DNA of 41,931 bases from Nitrososphaerales archaeon (lineage in GTDB: Archaea; Thermoproteota; Nitrososphaeria; Conexivisphaerales; Conexivisphaeraceae): contig JAGDXL010000019.1 of the NCBI GenBank assembly GCA_023256385.1, positions 1-41,931 on the forward strand. Direction: 5' to 3'. Below, piece after piece: positions 22,266 through 29,906 of the stretch. How positions within the stretch are numbered: position 1 is the first letter of the stretch; each line of letters opens with the position of its first letter. The position numbers were made by a program, and so were the translations under genes. The notes under the pieces were generated by a model, which worked only from the letters and a program-made list of their open reading frames with translations, had not been told where the DNA came from and ran no database searches.

Positions 22266-23954
22266 CTAATTAAGTGCTCGTGAGTATCCGTTCGGGCACC
22301 GGAGCACGGCTCCCTCATCCGCTTGGCACACGGATGACGCATACCTGGAAAGCACGCCCGTGACCTTCGCAATTTTCTCGGGGGTCCTCCAGCTCCTCCT
22401 CCTGTCCTCCAGCTCCTCCTCCGAGAGTTCGACGTCCAGCCGCCGGGATTCCACGTCTATGGAAATGACGTCCCCGTTCTTTATGAGCGCGATCGGCCCT
22501 CCCACCGCCGCCTCCGGCGCTACGTGCCCCACGCAAGGCCCCCTTGTGCCGCCCGAGAAGCGGCCGTCCGTCACCAGGGCGACCTCGGAGGAGAGGCCCA
22601 TTCCCACGATTGCCGATGTGGGCGACAGCATCTCCCTCATGCCGGGCCCACCCCTCGGCCCCTCGTAGCGTATCACGACCACGTCGCCACCGGATATTTT
22701 GCCGCCCACAATCGCGCGATACGCATCCTCCTCCGAGTCGAAGACGCGGGCAGTGCCCCTGAAGCGCATGTTCTCCTTGGGGATGGCTGCGGTCTTCAGC
22801 ACGGCTCCCCTGGGGGCGAGCGATCCCCTGAGTATCGCTATGCCGCCCTCGGCGTGCACGGGGTTCTCAGGTCCCCTTATGATGGACGTATCCTTGACCT
22901 CGGCCCCTCCCACTATCTCCCCGATGGTCCTGCCGGAGACCGTGAGGACATCCAAGTGAATGAGCTTGGATATCGATTTCATCAACGCTGGAACTCCGCC
23001 GGCGACGTGTAGATCCTCCATCATGTACGGCCCGCCCGGATATATCGGTGCGACGTGCGGCACCTTCCTGCTCATGCGGTCGAAGTCGTCCAGGCTAAGA
23101 TCTATGCCAGCTTCCCTCGATATTGCCAGCAGGTGCAGGACGGTGTTCGTGGAGCCACCGAGCGCCATGTCGACCGCTATCGCGTTCTCCAGGCTATCCC
23201 GGGACAGAAACTTGGACAGGTTAGCGCCCTGCCTGACGAGCTCAACTATCCTCTCCCCGGCCCTCCTGGCTATATCCTTCTTCTCCGCGCTGACTGCCAG
23301 CGCGGTCGCTGTGTAGGGGAGCGAAAGTCCGGCGGCCTCCGCTATCACCGCCATACTGTTCGCGGTGAAGAGCCCGCTGCAGGAACCCGGACCCGGGCAT
23401 GCCACCCTCTCCAGCTCCACGAGTTCCTCAAGCTCCATCTTTCCGGCCCTATAGCTCCCGACCGCCTCGAACACGTCGACGAGGCCCACCTTCTTTCCCC
23501 TCCAGATGCCCGCCGCCATGGGGCCGCCTGTGACGACTATCGTGGGCAGGTTCAGCCTGGCTGCCGCCAGCAGCATCCCAGGGGTTATCTTATCGCAGTT
23601 GGTTAGCAGCACCAGTCCGTCGAACTTGTGCGCGTTCACCATTATCTCTATCGAGTCCGCGATGACCTCGCGCGAGGGAAGCGAGTACTTCATGCCTGAG
23701 TGTCCCATCGCTATGCCGTCGTCCACCGCGATCGTGTTGAACTCGAATGGAACCCCTCCGCCGGCGCGCACCCCCATCTTCACGTATTCCGCGAGCCTCC
23801 TCAGGTGCACGTGTCCCGGAACCACCTCCGAGTAGCTGTTCGCTATTCCTATGAACGGCTTCCTGAAGTCGTCCTCTCCCAGGCCGGTCGCCCTTAGAAG
23901 TGATCTGTGCGGTGCCCTCTCGGGCCCCTCCTTTACCTCCGAGCTCCTGAGCAC
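22266..23954 (-). CDS. ilvD: Dihydroxy-acid dehydratase (GTG start proposed)
   Basis: [50 protein letters not shown]. Confidence 0.95.
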
Positions 23955-24043
23955 ACCTACCGTTAAACTGTGAGGATAAAAAGGCCGCGGTAGATGCGCG
24001 ATACCCTTATTTATGAGTCGCTCACTAGGAGGCGCGATCGACA

Positions 24044-24109
24044 ATGTCGGAGCGCATGAGCGCGTCACCATCCTCGGTTGCGCTCATAGTGCTCCTCATT
24101 GTCGTGTGA
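24044..24109 (+). CDS. BCAA-rich putative leader peptide of ilvB operon: [21 protein letters not shown]
   Basis: ATG...TGA, 21 codons; last ten residues [14 protein letters not shown]-like ttatttat at about 24009-24016 and AGGAGG at 24027-24032 upstream. Confidence 0.75.
24049..24095 (+). promoter_or_regulatory. Leader hairpin 1 overlapping the leader ORF
   Basis: GGAGC(24049-53)/GCTCC(24091-95) plus ATGAGCGC(24056-63)/GCGCTCAT(24080-87). Confidence 0.6.
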
Positions 24110-24111
24110 GT

Positions 24112-24136
24112 GGACCCCTCTCTTAGAAAGGGGTCC
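24112..24136 (+). promoter_or_regulatory. Leader hairpin 2 just upstream of ilvB SD
   Basis: GGACCCCT-CTCTTAGAA-AGGGGTCC perfect 8-bp stem; ilvB SD AGGAGGTGA at 24141-24149. Confidence 0.65.
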
Positions 24137-24156
24137 TTCTAGGAGGTGAATGTGAA

Positions 24157-25851
24157 TTGAACCTCATGTCCGGTTCCCGCGCCCTCATAAAGGCCCTGGA
24201 AAGGGAGGGCGTGGACGTCGTGTTCGGAATACCGGGCGGCGCAATAATGCCGGTCTACGATGAGCTGTTGAACAGTGATATACGGCACGTCCTAGCTAGA
24301 CACGAACAATCGGCCGCCCATATGGCTGACGGATATGCTAGGGCCTCTGGAAGGGTTGGCGTGTGCATGGCCACGTCCGGTCCCGGCGCGACAAACCTGG
24401 TCACGGGCGTCGCCACGGCTTACATGGACTCCACGCCGCTCGTGGCGATAACGGGTCAGGTGCCCACGTCGATGATGGCGAGGGACGCGTTCCAGGAGAT
24501 AGACGCGGTCGGAATATACACACATGTCACCAAGTACTCGTTCCAGCTGCTCAGGTCATCCGAGGTGCCTTACGTAACGAAGGCCGCCTTCTTCCTAGCT
24601 TCCACCGGTCGCACGGGCCCCGTGCACATCGACATGCCGAAGGACGTTCAGACGGGGGAGGCCGAGATGTCTTTCCCGGATCACGTAGACATAAGGGGTT
24701 ACCGGCCATACGTGCCCCCGGATCCGGCAGCAGTGGCACGGGCGCTCGACCTTCTGCTGGAGTCCGAGAGGCCCATAATACTTGCCGGCGGCGGCGTGAT
24801 AAAGTCCGGCGCCCACGACTATCTGCTGCAGCTGGCCGAGTCCGCGCTGATACCCGTGGCGACGACCCTGATGGGGAAGGGCGCGGTACCAGAGGACCAC
24901 CCGCTTTCCCTGGGCCCCGTCGGAATGCACGGAACAGTCCAGGCGAACAAGCTGGTGAACGAGGCGGACCTCGTGCTGGCGATCGGGGTGAGGTTCTCCG
25001 ACAGGACCACCATGGAGGTGAGGGGATTTGCGCCGGACGCCACAATAGTGCACTTCGACGTCGATCCGACCGAGGTGGGAAAGAACGTCAAGGCACATCA
25101 CGCCGTCACGGGCGATCTGAAGGCCAGCATTGGGCTGCTGCTTAGGATGTTCCAGGAGCGCGCCAGGACCGGGAGCTGGGGCGCCTGGCGCAGGAGGGTG
25201 GAGGAGGTGGTCTCACAGTGGCGCGACGCCGTTGTGGGCGTCAAATCGGAGTTCTCGCCGCCGCACATACTGAGGGCGATGCGCGAGATACTGCCGCCCG
25301 ATTCCATCGTGACGACCGAGGTCGGACAGAATCAGATGTGGGCTGAGCTGTACTTCAAGGTGCTGAGGCCGAGGACCTTCATAACGAGCGGCGGGCTGGG
25401 CACCATGGGCTTCGGATTCCCCGCGGCCATAGGGGCGAAGGCTGCTCGCCCAGACGTGCCGGTGGTCGACGTGGCGGGCGACGGAAGCTTCATGATGACC
25501 ATGAACTCCCTGGCAACCAGTATAGATGAGAAGCTTCCAGTAGTAGTGGTTATACTGAACAATTCATCGCTCGGCATGGTCGCGCAGTGGCAGAGGCTGT
25601 TCTACAACCGTAGATATGCCGCTACCATATTCGGGGCCAATCCGGACTTCGTGAGGCTGGCCGAGTCGTTCGGCGCCGAGGGCGTCAGGGTCTACTCCAT
25701 GGACGAGTTCCGCAACGCCTTCAGGACCGCGATCCGCAGCGATGTAACAACGGTGATAGATGTTCCAATACATCCCGAGGAGGACGTGTTTCCGTTCGTC
25801 GGTCCGGGGAGGACGCTGAACGAGATGCTATTGGGGGATGGAAGGGAATGA
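24157..25851 (+). CDS. ilvB: Acetolactate synthase large subunit
   Basis: GIPGGAIMPVYDEL, ATSGPGATNLVTG, TPLVAITGQV, ThDP motif GDGSFMMTMNSLAT; TTG start. Confidence 0.95.
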   Translation: MNLMSGSRALIKALEREGVDVVFGIPGGAIMPVYDELLNSDIRHVLARHEQSAAHMADGYARASGRVGVCMATSGPGATNLVTGVATAYMDSTPLVAITGQVPTSMMARDAFQEIDAVGIYTHVTKYSFQLLRSSEVPYVTKAAFFLASTGRTGPVHIDMPKDVQTGEAEMSFPDHVDIRGYRPYVPPDPAAVARALDLLLESERPIILAGGGVIKSGAHDYLLQLAESALIPVATTLMGKGAVPEDHPLSLGPVGMHGTVQANKLVNEADLVLAIGVRFSDRTTMEVRGFAPDATIVHFDVDPTEVGKNVKAHHAVTGDLKASIGLLLRMFQERARTGSWGAWRRRVEEVVSQWRDAVVGVKSEFSPPHILRAMREILPPDSIVTTEVGQNQMWAELYFKVLRPRTFITSGGLGTMGFGFPAAIGAKAARPDVPVVDVAGDGSFMMTMNSLATSIDEKLPVVVVILNNSSLGMVAQWQRLFYNRRYAATIFGANPDFVRLAESFGAEGVRVYSMDEFRNAFRTAIRSDVTTVIDVPIHPEEDVFPFVGPGRTLNEMLLGDGRE

Positions 25852-26345
25852 ATGGAGCAGAGGGGAGCTCACAGACTCCTATAATCTACTCCTTAATAGT
25901 GGAGAATAAGCCGGGCGTCCTCTTCAGGGTTGCCTCCCAGTTCCGCAGGAGGAGCTTCAACATAGAGAGTGTGGCGGTGGGCGTGACGGAGCGTCCCGAC
26001 ACATCAAGGATGATAATAACTATGCGCGGGGATCAGCAGATGGCGGAGGACTTCGCCAGGGTGCTCAGGCGCACCGTGGACGTGATAGACGTGGATCGCA
26101 TGGATCCTGGGAGGGCAGTGCAGAGGGAGCTTGCGCTGATCAGGGTGAAGCCAGGGGGCAAGGAGATAGCGGGCGGCGTCCGGGGGGAGGGCGAGCTGAA
26201 AATACTAGCCGAGTCCTCCGATGGCGCCATCATACAGGCGATCGGTCCTCCTGATTACTTGTCGTCCTTAGTGGACGCACTGGTCCGTGGGAAAGTACTT
26301 GAGGAGGTGGTCCGCACGGGCGTGGTGGCATTGGAGGTGCGGTGA
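25848..26345 (+). CDS. ilvN: Acetolactate synthase small subunit (ACT domain)
   Basis: YSLIVENKPGVLFRVASQFRRRSFNIESVAVGVTE. Confidence 0.95.
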   Translation: MNGAEGSSQTPIIYSLIVENKPGVLFRVASQFRRRSFNIESVAVGVTERPDTSRMIITMRGDQQMAEDFARVLRRTVDVIDVDRMDPGRAVQRELALIRVKPGGKEIAGGVRGEGELKILAESSDGAIIQAIGPPDYLSSLVDALVRGKVLEEVVRTGVVALEVR

Positions 26346-26348
26346 TAG

Positions 26349-27335
26349 ATGTCCAAGATATACTACGATAATGACGTGTCCATGGAGCCCATACTCTCGA
26401 GGAAGGTGGCCGTCATAGGCTATGGAAGCCAGGGAAGGGCGCAGGCACTGAACCTGAGGGACAGCGGGGTCGAGGTGTACGTCGGCCTCAGGAGGGGAGG
26501 GCGCTCTTGGTCGCAGGCATCTCAGGACGGATTCGAGCCCCTTCCGATGGATGACGCAGTGAGGAGGGCCGACGTGGTCCAGATACTGATACCTGACCTG
26601 CAGCAGCCCTCCGTCTACTCGAGCGTCATAGGCCCCAATCTGAGGAAGGGCGCAGCGCTGGGATTTGCTCACGCGTTCAACATGCACTACGGGCTCATCC
26701 GCCCACCCGGGTGGGCGGACGTGTTCATGGTTGCGCCCAAGAGCCCCGGTCCACGCCTCAGGGATGAGTACGTGGCCGGCAGGGGGGTTCCGTCGCTGAT
26801 AGCCGTGGCTCAGGATGGATCCGGAAAGGCGAAGGACCTGGCGCTCGCCTATGCGAAGGCGATAGGCTCCACCCGTGCGGGGGTCATGGAGACCACCTTC
26901 AAGGAGGAGGTGGAGACCGACCTCTTCGGAGAACAGACCGTGCTGGTGGGCGGCGTCACCTATCTGATACTCAGGGGCTTCGAGACCCTTGTCGAGGCTG
27001 GATATCAGCCTGAGGTCGCGTACTTCGAGGTGCTGAACGAGCTGAAGCTGATAGTTGACCTCATACAGTCCGGCGGCATATCACACATGCTGGAGTCCGT
27101 ATCCGAGACGGCGCGCTACGGCGGCATGACCCGGGGTCCGCGCGTTATAGATGAGCGGGTGAGGGAGAACATGCGCGAGGTCCTCAAGGAAATACAGTCC
27201 GGCGAGTTCGCGAGGGAGTGGGCAGGCGACGTCGATAAGAGCTCCGCCGAGATGAGGCGCCTGGTGGACTCCATCAGGTCGCACCAGATAGAGAAGGTGG
27301 GCGAACAGGTTCGGCGGCTGATGAAGATCGGGTGA
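26349..27335 (+). CDS. ilvC: Ketol-acid reductoisomerase
   Basis: VIGYGSQGRAQALNLRDSGVEV, TTFKEEVETDLFGEQTVLVGG. Confidence 0.96.
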   Translation: MSKIYYDNDVSMEPILSRKVAVIGYGSQGRAQALNLRDSGVEVYVGLRRGGRSWSQASQDGFEPLPMDDAVRRADVVQILIPDLQQPSVYSSVIGPNLRKGAALGFAHAFNMHYGLIRPPGWADVFMVAPKSPGPRLRDEYVAGRGVPSLIAVAQDGSGKAKDLALAYAKAIGSTRAGVMETTFKEEVETDLFGEQTVLVGGVTYLILRGFETLVEAGYQPEVAYFEVLNELKLIVDLIQSGGISHMLESVSETARYGGMTRGPRVIDERVRENMREVLKEIQSGEFAREWAGDVDKSSAEMRRLVDSIRSHQIEKVGEQVRRLMKIG

Positions 27336-28912
27336 ACTCGGTGAGGAACGGGCTGGATCCGCTGTCATCAGATGGTAAGGTCTACATATTCGACACGACC
27401 CTTAGGGATGGCGAGCAGACACCCGGCGTCGCCCTCACGCCCGATGAGAAGGTGGAGATAGCCCGGCAGCTGGACAAATTGGGGGTCGATGTGATCGAGG
27501 CGGGATTTCCCGCGTCCAGCGAGGGCGAGTTCGAGGGGGTCCGCAAGGTATCCTCACTCGGCCTGAGGTCCAGGGTGGCGGCGCTCGCCAGATCCGTCAG
27601 GGGCGACGTGGACAGGGCGCTCGCCGCGGGCGTCGACAGGATCCACGTCTTCATAGCGACGTCGGACGTGCACCTTCAGTACAAGCTGAAGATGAGCAGG
27701 GAGGACGCGCTGGCCAGCGCCGTCGACGCCGTCAGCTACGCGAAGTCGCACGGCGTCGAGGTCGAGTTCTCGGCGGAGGACGCAACGAGGACGGATCCCC
27801 AGTTCCTTCGCACGGTCTTCTCCGAGGTCGCGGCAGCGGGCGCCGACGTGCTGGATATACCTGACACCGTGGGCGTGGCCACGCCGGAGAGGATCGCGGA
27901 GCTCGTGAGGCTCACCAAGGAGGCGGCGCCGGGAAAGATTATCAGTGTGCACTGCCACGATGACTTCGGGCTGGCGGTCGCCAACAGCGTCTCAGGCGTC
28001 CTCGCAGGGGCCCAGCAGTTCCACGCCACCATAAACGGGATAGGCGAGAGGGCCGGCAACGCCTCGCTCGAGGAGGCCGCACTGGTGCTGAAGTTCCTGT
28101 ACGGAAAGAGCGTCGGGATAAAGCCCGAGCTCATCTACGAGACCTCGCGCCTGGTGGCCAGGCTCACCGGAATCTATCCGCCGCCCAACAAGGCACTGGT
28201 TGGAGACAACGCCTTCGGCCACGAGTCTGGCATACACGTCCACGGGGTGCTGGAGATGCCCTCCACCTATGAGCCCATAAGCCCAGAAGTCGTCGGCCGC
28301 AGGAGGTTCTTCGTCGCCGGGAAGCACGCCGGAAGCCACGGCATAGAGGCTATGCTGAGGGAGTATGGAATCGACGTGAATGAGGAGCAGCTGCGCCAGA
28401 TAGTGCGCGAGGTGAAGCGCCTGGGCGACATGGGCAAGACGGTCACGGATGCCGACCTGCTGGCAATCGCCAGGAGCGTCCTGGGGAAGCTCCCCGCTGG
28501 GGAGGCGGCGGTCTCCCTCACGGGGCTGGTGGTCGTCACGGGAATGGGCGTCAGTCCAACCGCGTCCGTGCGCATCCGGTTGAAGGATCGCGACGTGGAC
28601 ACTTCCAGCGTCGGCGTCGGGCCCGTCGATGCGGCCCTGCGGGCAATACAATCGGTGGTCAGGGAGATAGCGGACGTCCGCCTGGTGGAATACAGGCTCG
28701 AGGCCATAACGGGCGGATCCGATGCGCTGGGGGAGGTCGTGGTCAAGGTGGAGGACGACCTCGGCAACATGGCGTCCGCGCGCTCAGTCGGCACGGACAT
28801 AGTGATGGCAAGCGTGGATGCGATGGTCGATGGAATAAATAAGATCCTCCAGAAGAGGTCGGCGGTGGCAACAGGGAATGTGCGCATACAGAATAGCGGT
28901 AATAGAGGGTGA
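27332..28912 (+). CDS. leuA: 2-isopropylmalate synthase
   Basis: FDTTLRDGEQTPGVALTPDEK, VHCHDDFGLAVANSVSG, INGIGERAGNASLEE, C-terminal regulatory domain. Confidence 0.93.
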   Translation: MNSVRNGLDPLSSDGKVYIFDTTLRDGEQTPGVALTPDEKVEIARQLDKLGVDVIEAGFPASSEGEFEGVRKVSSLGLRSRVAALARSVRGDVDRALAAGVDRIHVFIATSDVHLQYKLKMSREDALASAVDAVSYAKSHGVEVEFSAEDATRTDPQFLRTVFSEVAAAGADVLDIPDTVGVATPERIAELVRLTKEAAPGKIISVHCHDDFGLAVANSVSGVLAGAQQFHATINGIGERAGNASLEEAALVLKFLYGKSVGIKPELIYETSRLVARLTGIYPPPNKALVGDNAFGHESGIHVHGVLEMPSTYEPISPEVVGRRRFFVAGKHAGSHGIEAMLREYGIDVNEEQLRQIVREVKRLGDMGKTVTDADLLAIARSVLGKLPAGEAAVSLTGLVVVTGMGVSPTASVRIRLKDRDVDTSSVGVGPVDAALRAIQSVVREIADVRLVEYRLEAITGGSDALGEVVVKVEDDLGNMASARSVGTDIVMASVDAMVDGINKILQKRSAVATGNVRIQNSGNRG

Positions 28913-29906
28913 CGGCATAGGTCCGGAGGTCGTGCCGGTGGCCATCTCGGTGGTCCAGCGCGCGGCCGACATCTTCGGGTTCTCGGTCGAGTTCCGCGGG
29001 TACAGGGCAGGCGACTCCGCGCTCGCCGAGCTCGGGGAGGCACTGCCGGAGGAGACGATACAGGGCGTCAGGTCCTCCGACGCGGCGATCAAGGGCCCCG
29101 TCGGCGAGACCGCGAAGGACGTCATAGTCCGCCTCAGGCAGATGTTCGATCTCTACGCAAATCTGCGCCCGGCCAAGGTCTATCCCGGGGTGAGGCCGCT
29201 GATGGACGGCGTGGACATACTGATAGTCAGGGAGAACACCGAGGATCTCTACAAGGGCTACGAGTTCGAGCTGCCGGGCTCGGCCGTCGCGCTCAAGGTC
29301 GTGACGGAGCGGGCGTCCAGGAGGATAGCTGAGTACGCGTTCAGGGAGGCCGAGAGGCGCAGGAAGCACGTGACCATAGTCCACAAGTCCAACGTGATGC
29401 CCAAGACGGATGGACTCTTCGGCCGCGTCGCGAAGGAGGTGGCGAGTTCCCATCCAGGCGTATCCTATAGGGAGATGTACGTGGACGCGGCGTCCATGGC
29501 CCTGATAAGGGATCCTCGCTCCTTCGACGTATTGCTCACGATGAACGTCTACGGGGACATACTGTCGGATGAGGCGGCCCAGGTCGTCGGGGGGCTCGGC
29601 ATGGCGCCCTCCGCCAACATAGGGGAGAAAATGGCGCTCTTCGAGCCCGTCCACGGATCCGCCCCCGACATAGCTGGAAAGGGGCTGGCCAATCCGTACG
29701 CCACTGTGCTCTCCGCCGCGATGATGCTGGACTGGCTCTCCCAGGCCAAGGGCGATCCACGGCTGGAGAAGGCATCTAAACTCGTGGAGTCCGCCGCCGT
29801 CACCGCCCTCAGGAGAGGGATAGCGACGCCCGATTTGGGTGGCAAGTATAAAACCAGCGAGGTGGGGAAGGGTCTGGAGGCGGTGATGGTTGAGCTCGGA
29901 GGATGA
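28878..29906 (+). CDS. leuB: 3-isopropylmalate dehydrogenase (isocitrate/isopropylmalate dehydrogenase family)
   Basis: IAVIEGDGIGPEVV, VRENTEDLYKG, MNVYGDILSDEAAQVVGGLGMAPSANIG. Confidence 0.92.
   Translation: MCAYRIAVIEGDGIGPEVVPVAISVVQRAADIFGFSVEFRGYRAGDSALAELGEALPEETIQGVRSSDAAIKGPVGETAKDVIVRLRQMFDLYANLRPAKVYPGVRPLMDGVDILIVRENTEDLYKGYEFELPGSAVALKVVTERASRRIAEYAFREAERRRKHVTIVHKSNVMPKTDGLFGRVAKEVASSHPGVSYREMYVDAASMALIRDPRSFDVLLTMNVYGDILSDEAAQVVGGLGMAPSANIGEKMALFEPVHGSAPDIAGKGLANPYATVLSAAMMLDWLSQAKGDPRLEKASKLVESAAVTALRRGIATPDLGGKYKTSEVGKGLEAVMVELGG

Follow-up and report, generated by a model that had tools for sequence, protein, structure and literature searches.

The window, the whole 41,931 nt stretch of DNA, from an incomplete assembly of a Nitrososphaerales archaeon, that was analysed here, carries ilvD on the minus strand, divergent from an operon on the plus strand that begins with ilvB. 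The spacer between the two genes contains a TATA-like box, a 21-codon ORF, two predicted hairpins, an SD sequence and the TTG start codon of ilvB. The features are as follows:

22266-23957, minus strand: ilvD, dihydroxy-acid dehydratase, divergent, with a probable GTG start near 23957
24005-24014, plus strand: TATA-like box CCTTATTTAT of the putative leader/ilvB promoter, at -39 to the leader start
24039-24104, plus strand: hairpin 1 (MFE fold), with the leader start codon on its 5' arm and the branched-chain amino acid (BCAA) codons on its 3' arm
24044-24109, plus strand: leader ORF of 21 codons (ORF translation)
24077-24106, plus strand: putative control-codon run of 10 residues adjoining the stop codon, of a type conserved in 15 families
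24108-24139, plus strand: hairpin 2 (core 24112-24136; MFE fold), ending just 5' of the SD
24141-24149, plus strand: SD of ilvB, AGGAGGTGA, a perfect SD by its sequence
24157-25851, plus strand: ilvB, acetolactate synthase large subunit (TIGR00118, 731 bits)
25848-26345, plus strand: ilvN
26349-27335, plus strand: ilvC
27332-28912, plus strand: leuA
28878-29906, plus strand: leuB-type dehydrogenase

The ilvB start codon lies 7 nt 3' of its SD, and the four downstream genes of the operon (25848-29906, plus strand) overlap or adjoin one another. The 601-aa ORF of ilvD would start at 24071, which is too far upstream because the family match begins only at residue 41. From the position of the TATA-like box, transcription of the leader and ilvB is expected to start at about 24036-24040, and the leader ORF, which lies downstream of this predicted operon promoter, would therefore be near-leaderless. 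The same spacing recurs in related genomes, where 53 of 66 loci have a TATA-like 8-mer at 31-40 nt 5' of the start of the leader (tied positions were assigned toward -40, which sharpens the peak somewhat).

The ORF heads an operon (ilvB/N/C, leuA) for the very amino acids that its terminal codons specify. How unusual this is was assessed in G001, a complete sister genome of 1.58 Mb, in which 1422 genes were called and 754 gene-upstream regions were scored alike. The ilvB leader ranked first of 754 for an Ile/Leu/Val run (9 of 10 codons; the next best region had 7), and the ilvB upstream region ranked second of 753 by fold z-score. A genome-wide scan of G001 for other cognate-codon leaders found no second case that was convincing. 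Across the loci of the class, the last 11 residues of the leaders are 75% I/L/V, 0.2% F and 0.3% M; the I/L/V share is partly selected by the way leaders were picked, while the scarcity of other hydrophobic residues is not. Since F and M are almost absent, the run appears to be pathway-specific rather than generically hydrophobic. This bears on the view that the product of the ORF is a small hydrophobic (membrane) peptide with a function of its own, or that the ORF is incidental to a structured RNA with another role. The run is indeed hydrophobic and the hairpins are conserved, but the run comprises just 7-10 residues, which are I/L/V almost throughout, F, M, G and W being very rare, and it is linked to an operon for these very amino acids, while the N-terminal half of the peptide varies between families and the RNA has no match in Rfam. 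We regard such a role as highly improbable.

Folding of positions 24035-24165 gave an MFE structure of -64.5 kcal/mol that contains both hairpins, as against -38.2 +/- 3.4 kcal/mol for shuffled sequences (z -7.7; none of 200 shuffles was equally stable). Taken separately, the leader region with hairpin 1 has a z-score of -6.3 and the spacer with hairpin 2 one of -2.5. All of the sequence strings quoted in an earlier note on this DNA lie where it placed them: GGAGC (24049-24053) with GCTCC (24091-24095), and the stem ATGAGCGC (24056-24063) with GCGCTCAT (24080-24087), in hairpin 1; GGACCCCT (24112-24119) with AGGGGTCC (24129-24136) as the core stem of hairpin 2; and TCACCATCCT (24065-24074) in the hairpin-1 loop, with CTCCT at 24092-24096. 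The two hairpins that it described are both present at their sites, but hairpin 1 is larger than the 24049-24095 given there, because an outer stem of 8 bp, CGACAATG (24039-24046) with CATTGTCG (24097-24104), extends it to 24039-24104 and so encloses the leader start codon (24044-24046). The note's proposal that a BCAA leader ORF is built into hairpin 1 is borne out (ORF 24044-24109, run on the 3' arm), and its further suggestion that a stalled ribosome would disrupt this hairpin is supported, the BCAA codons being the 3' arm itself. Hairpin 2 has a weak extension to 24108-24139 that takes in the GA of the leader stop codon. A search of positions 23500-24700 with the Rfam covariance models gave no matches at E <= 1, and known RNA families (T-box, Leu_leader, riboswitches and others) were rejected.

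The ilvB upstream regions of 90 loci, from 16 families of the class Nitrososphaeria, were then compared. BCAA-rich leaders precede ilvB in 15 of the 16 (f1, f3, f5, f7, f10, f12, f13, f15-f20 and f24, plus one f4 locus), and are alike in a run next to the stop codon in which 7-10 of 10 codons are for Ile, Leu or Val, in a near-leaderless promoter and in a hairpin at the stop codon. Example peptides are MEQLEASSKLVSIIRRLNVILLIIV (f5), MPNTGSERSRHKVKILVLLVLA (f10), MGKDFDFQIPVSISILLLSLLL (f20) and MKLGGSASISSILLLVDLML (f7); their N-terminal halves are not conserved between families. The best 10-codon I/L/V count averages 6.7 over the 90 loci as against 4.6 in shuffles, and counts of at least 7 occur in 59 of the 90 on the sense strand but in only 8 of the 90 on the reverse strand. 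Leaders are missing in half of the f10 loci, and they are absent or degenerate in most f4 loci and in all six f9 loci.

Both hairpins are kept in relatives in spite of sequence change. In 15 of 15 families the leader region, with hairpin 1, folds more stably than its dinucleotide shuffles (mean z -1.7; f1, -5.0), and in 13 of 14 so does the spacer, with hairpin 2 (mean z -1.5), so that, as in attenuators, conserved stem-loops both overlap and follow the ORF. The 5' arm of hairpin 2 starts between -9 and +8 nt from the stop codon in all loci that possess it, and its arms vary while their pairing is retained: GGACCCCT/AGGGGTCC in the window (L001), GACCTCC/GGAGGTC in L003, GCCGGGCAT/ATGTCCGGC in L004, GGACTCACA/TGTGAGTCC in L118 and GGGCTCA/TGAGCCC in L120. 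Stems of f1 were compared arm by arm, as a MAFFT alignment of four f1 leaders misaligned the hairpins and column-based covariation was not used. Pairing between the start region and the BCAA region exceeds that of shuffles in 14 of 17 groups, Archaeoglobi and DHVE2 included, and is weak in f7, the largest family (z 0.36). The leader start codon of Nitrosopumilus-type loci is paired with bases immediately 3' of the stop codon, and the stem variants TGAGTAC/GTACTCA, TGAGCACA/TGTGCTCA and GTGTGT/ACACAC are all paired. The layout found in these sequences, conserved class-wide, is that of a promoter-proximal ORF with terminal Ile/Leu/Val codons and the two predicted hairpins.

Some loci depart from this pattern or carry additional elements. 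In f5 (L011, L014, L015) and in L013 there is no hairpin 2, and the leader stop codon lies directly against the ilvB SD, which suggests that the output stage has diverged while the sensor has been kept. Relatives in families f7, f9, f10 and f12 possess archaeal amoA, which identifies the class as Nitrososphaeria, and the gene is absent from the tested genomes of the window's own order (G001, G003, G004 and G005). In the amoA-bearing f9 loci (L122, L123, L125, L127 and L128), a conserved ORF, MYSHPYMLYH..., rich in Met, His and Tyr, stands before ilvB in place of the BCAA run. Nitrosopumilus-type genomes (L020, L024-L028, L150, L157, L165-L167, L310-L329) share an AT-rich block, ATTAAAATTATGG or a sequence very like it, which is strongly conserved and lies between leader and gene, some 40 nt 5' of ilvB; it may be an additional, internal promoter from which transcription would bypass the leader.

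The earlier note had proposed that the loop sequence TCACCATCCT, or CTCCT, pairs with the ilvB SD, and that a stalled ribosome would free the SD. These complementarities exist in the window, and in two single loci (L005 and L112) the MFE structure pairs the end of the leader with the SD region, but the pairing is not conserved even among the nearest relatives: the TCACC of the loop corresponds to TCATC at L002, the sister locus, where IlvB is 98% identical, and L003 does not retain it either, while the SD of L004 lacks AGGAG. The window duplex is unexceptional (z -1.5; 10% of shuffled leaders do equally well), the families taken together show no excess of complementarity between leader and SD (mean z -0.21), and exposure of the SD is not reduced beyond that seen with shuffled leaders (0.32 vs 0.36). 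Folding with and without ribosome-occupied segments, which the note had recommended, barely changed the predicted exposure of the SD, the value for the window being 0.25-0.32 at every ribosome position when only the RNA downstream of the footprint was folded. Sequestration of the SD by the leader was rejected as a general mechanism, the conserved leader/SD pairing of an SD-sequestering translational attenuator not being found, and for the window itself we consider it very unlikely.

The sequence that follows hairpin 2 in the window is TTCTAGG, and the note's statement that no T-tract is present there holds for the window and for most families; a T-tract is likewise absent after hairpin 2 in L003, L004 and L006 and in families f10, f12, f13 and f15-f19. 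The window lacks the GC-rich hairpin with U-tract of an intrinsic terminator, a search of its plus strand for a terminator-like site found none, and an intrinsic terminator was rejected for want of a U-tract in the window or most families. U-tracts occur after hairpin 2 only in f3 and part of f7.

Control could nonetheless be transcriptional, with hairpin 2 or the ribosome-free RNA leading to termination before ilvB, either intrinsically or via the archaeal factor FttA/aCPSF1, and with a ribosome in the BCAA run preventing it. The f3 locus L005 has T6 after hairpin 2, and runs of at least 4 T follow it in 11 f7 loci, although T-runs are common by chance in the AT-rich f7 genomes. Outside the class, BCAA-run leaders were found before ilvB at L038:2789-2894 (DHVE2), L060:541-607 and L077:2884-2971 (both Archaeoglobi), and two of the three are followed by a hairpin and T6: the DHVE2 leader, where the hairpin is GC-rich, and that of the Archaeoglobus locus L077, with the peptide MNATPFSEKIGVSFLGVVILVGIIVVLL. 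Moreover, archaeal transcription and translation are coupled and FttA is the likely cause of polarity (PMC7858274, PMC12548453). Factor-dependent termination is a live alternative. Against this stands the missing T-tract in the window and most families, and we judge this form of attenuation unlikely, if still to be reckoned with.

A third possibility is translational coupling, in which ribosomes that finish the leader would start again at ilvB across a gap made shorter by hairpin 2. Hairpin 2 does span the distance from stop codon to SD, and the leaders of f5 and L013 end right at the ilvB SD. In the window, however, 47 nt separate the leader stop from the ilvB start, and in both Haloferax and E. 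coli coupling is slight or absent once the gap exceeds 30 nt (reviewed in PMC12548453), so re-initiation is unlikely. In addition, ilvB has a perfect SD of its own, and the sign would be wrong, as coupling predicts more ilvB when amino acids are plentiful. We give this explanation little weight.

On the sequence evidence, leader-peptide attenuation of some kind is quite likely, and with somewhat less assurance the element in the window can be specified as a ribosome-mediated, leader-peptide attenuator of the ilvBNC-leuA-leuB-type operon that works without an intrinsic terminator. Whether it acts at translation is close to an even question, falling slightly on the doubtful side, and action at transcription is rather unlikely. 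We infer stalling, and the sign and level of control, along the following lines. A ribosome on the near-leaderless transcript would translate the leader ORF; when charged Val, Leu or Ile tRNA is scarce it would dwell in the run and prevent hairpin 1 from closing, and on reaching the last codons of the run it would also cover the foot of hairpin 2, so that ilvB is expressed. With Val, Leu and Ile plentiful, the ribosome would finish and leave, both hairpins would fold, and ilvB expression would fall. The output would then consist of hairpins 1 and 2 in the ribosome-free leader depressing ilvB, most likely at or just before initiation. The absence of a conserved U-tract and the conserved placement of hairpin 2 before the SD make an effect on initiation or early elongation of ilvB likelier than intrinsic termination. 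The third, mutually exclusive hairpin of textbook attenuators was not clearly seen in the window; when the model placed a ribosome on BCAA codons at the beginning or in the middle of the run, hairpin 2 was still predicted to be folded and no alternative hairpin appeared, and no mutually exclusive (antiterminator) pairing switched by ribosome position was found.

Short ORFs were also seen upstream of other genes and in other archaea. In Bathyarchaeota, the region upstream of ilvB (L031, L033-L037) has a conserved short ORF, (A/G)TGAGGGATCGTCACCTC..., for example MRDRHLNNWDRRVLIL*, which in some species ends in a few BCAA codons; it could be a further type of leader. Upstream of hisG, no clear His run was found except for short leaderless ORFs in f1, where all three genomes (L183, L184, L185) have a predicted leaderless mini-ORF, ATG NNN GTT CAT (M-x-V-H), that overlaps or abuts the hisG start and is a possible His-codon leader.

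At trpE, the mRNA of 30 of 36 class loci is predicted to be leaderless, and its 5' end (ATG/TTG GGT G(A/G)N NNN NTT TGG) opens a short ORF M-G-(G/D/E)-x-x-W of 6-18 codons that overlaps trpE and is always +1 out of frame with TrpE. The TrpE frame is closed in L172, L174, L212, L337, L338 and L341 (L335 is similar by eye); the other loci with the short ORF are L173, L175-L180, L203, L206, L208-L211, L213-L217, L219-L224 and L226-L228. In several f2, f15 and f16 genomes the TrpE frame reads GTG NNN TAG TTT GGN and is thus interrupted by a stop codon at this point; the region examined contains no ATG, GTG or TTG ahead of the conserved domain. Since the frame has no canonical start in these genomes, TrpE may need either a +1 shift at the Trp codon or a non-canonical start. 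An SD-like GGGTGA together with NUU UGG gives a layout like that of bacterial prfB. The arrangement at trpE suggests that sensing of cognate codons by the ribosome is a habit of the class.

A 2021 study (Blombach et al., PMC8448881) stated that no transcription attenuation or antitermination was known in archaea, and by that account ribosome-sensing attenuation, a control that the present element resembles, lacks a known transcriptional example there. A search of the open-access literature, with subscription papers and preprints outside its scope, found no report of archaeal leader-peptide attenuation. Tentatively, such attenuation may be an ancestral and widespread form of control of archaeal amino-acid operons, near class-wide at ilvB in Nitrososphaeria, occurring also in Archaeoglobi, DHVE2 and possibly Bathyarchaeota; sister devices would include an out-of-frame trpE start that senses Trp codons (with a possible +1 frameshift). 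If the leaders work, then archaea, abundant ammonia oxidisers included, would read amino-acid supply by ribosomes in cis, as bacteria do, and such sensing would need no bacterial-type terminator. With the catalogue of loci supplied, the question of archaeal attenuation becomes directly testable in cultivated species.

In the ilvGMEDA, leu, his and trp attenuators of E. coli, a leader peptide rich in cognate codons heads the cognate operon, and stem-loops overlap and follow its ORF. The archaeal element shares these features, and by analogy its sensor would work like that of an E. coli-type attenuator, but its putative control codons are located in the 3' arm of hairpin 1 and adjoin the stop codon. 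It is not classed with the E. coli attenuators because neither a switching antiterminator/terminator pair nor an intrinsic terminator was found. Translational attenuators of the ermC type depend on drug-induced arrest by the nascent chain, and the SD itself is sequestered. They likewise have a leader ORF whose stalled ribosome remodels hairpins before a downstream RBS, as we infer for the archaeal element, in which, by contrast, the SD lies outside both hairpin cores. The actinobacterial LEU element, a leuA leader with a conserved pseudoknot and a run of leucine codons that has been proposed to pair with the SD (PMC1262725), resembles it in its cognate-codon leader and in that run/SD pairing has been proposed for both; the pseudoknot is conserved in LEU, whereas the archaeal codon-run/SD pairing is not. 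The ilvB leaders of Corynebacterium, Mycobacterium and Streptomyces, short ORFs with runs of Ile/Val/Leu codons 5' of ilvB(N/H)C (PMC1262725), are bacterial and have hairpins followed by poly-U, whereas the window element is archaeal and has no poly-U; it differs from them further in that its leader start codon lies within hairpin 1 and its hairpin 2 stands at the stop codon. Their mode of action is likewise unclear (PMC1262725), and they share with the archaeal element a BCAA-codon ORF 5' of ilvB whose run overlaps a hairpin.
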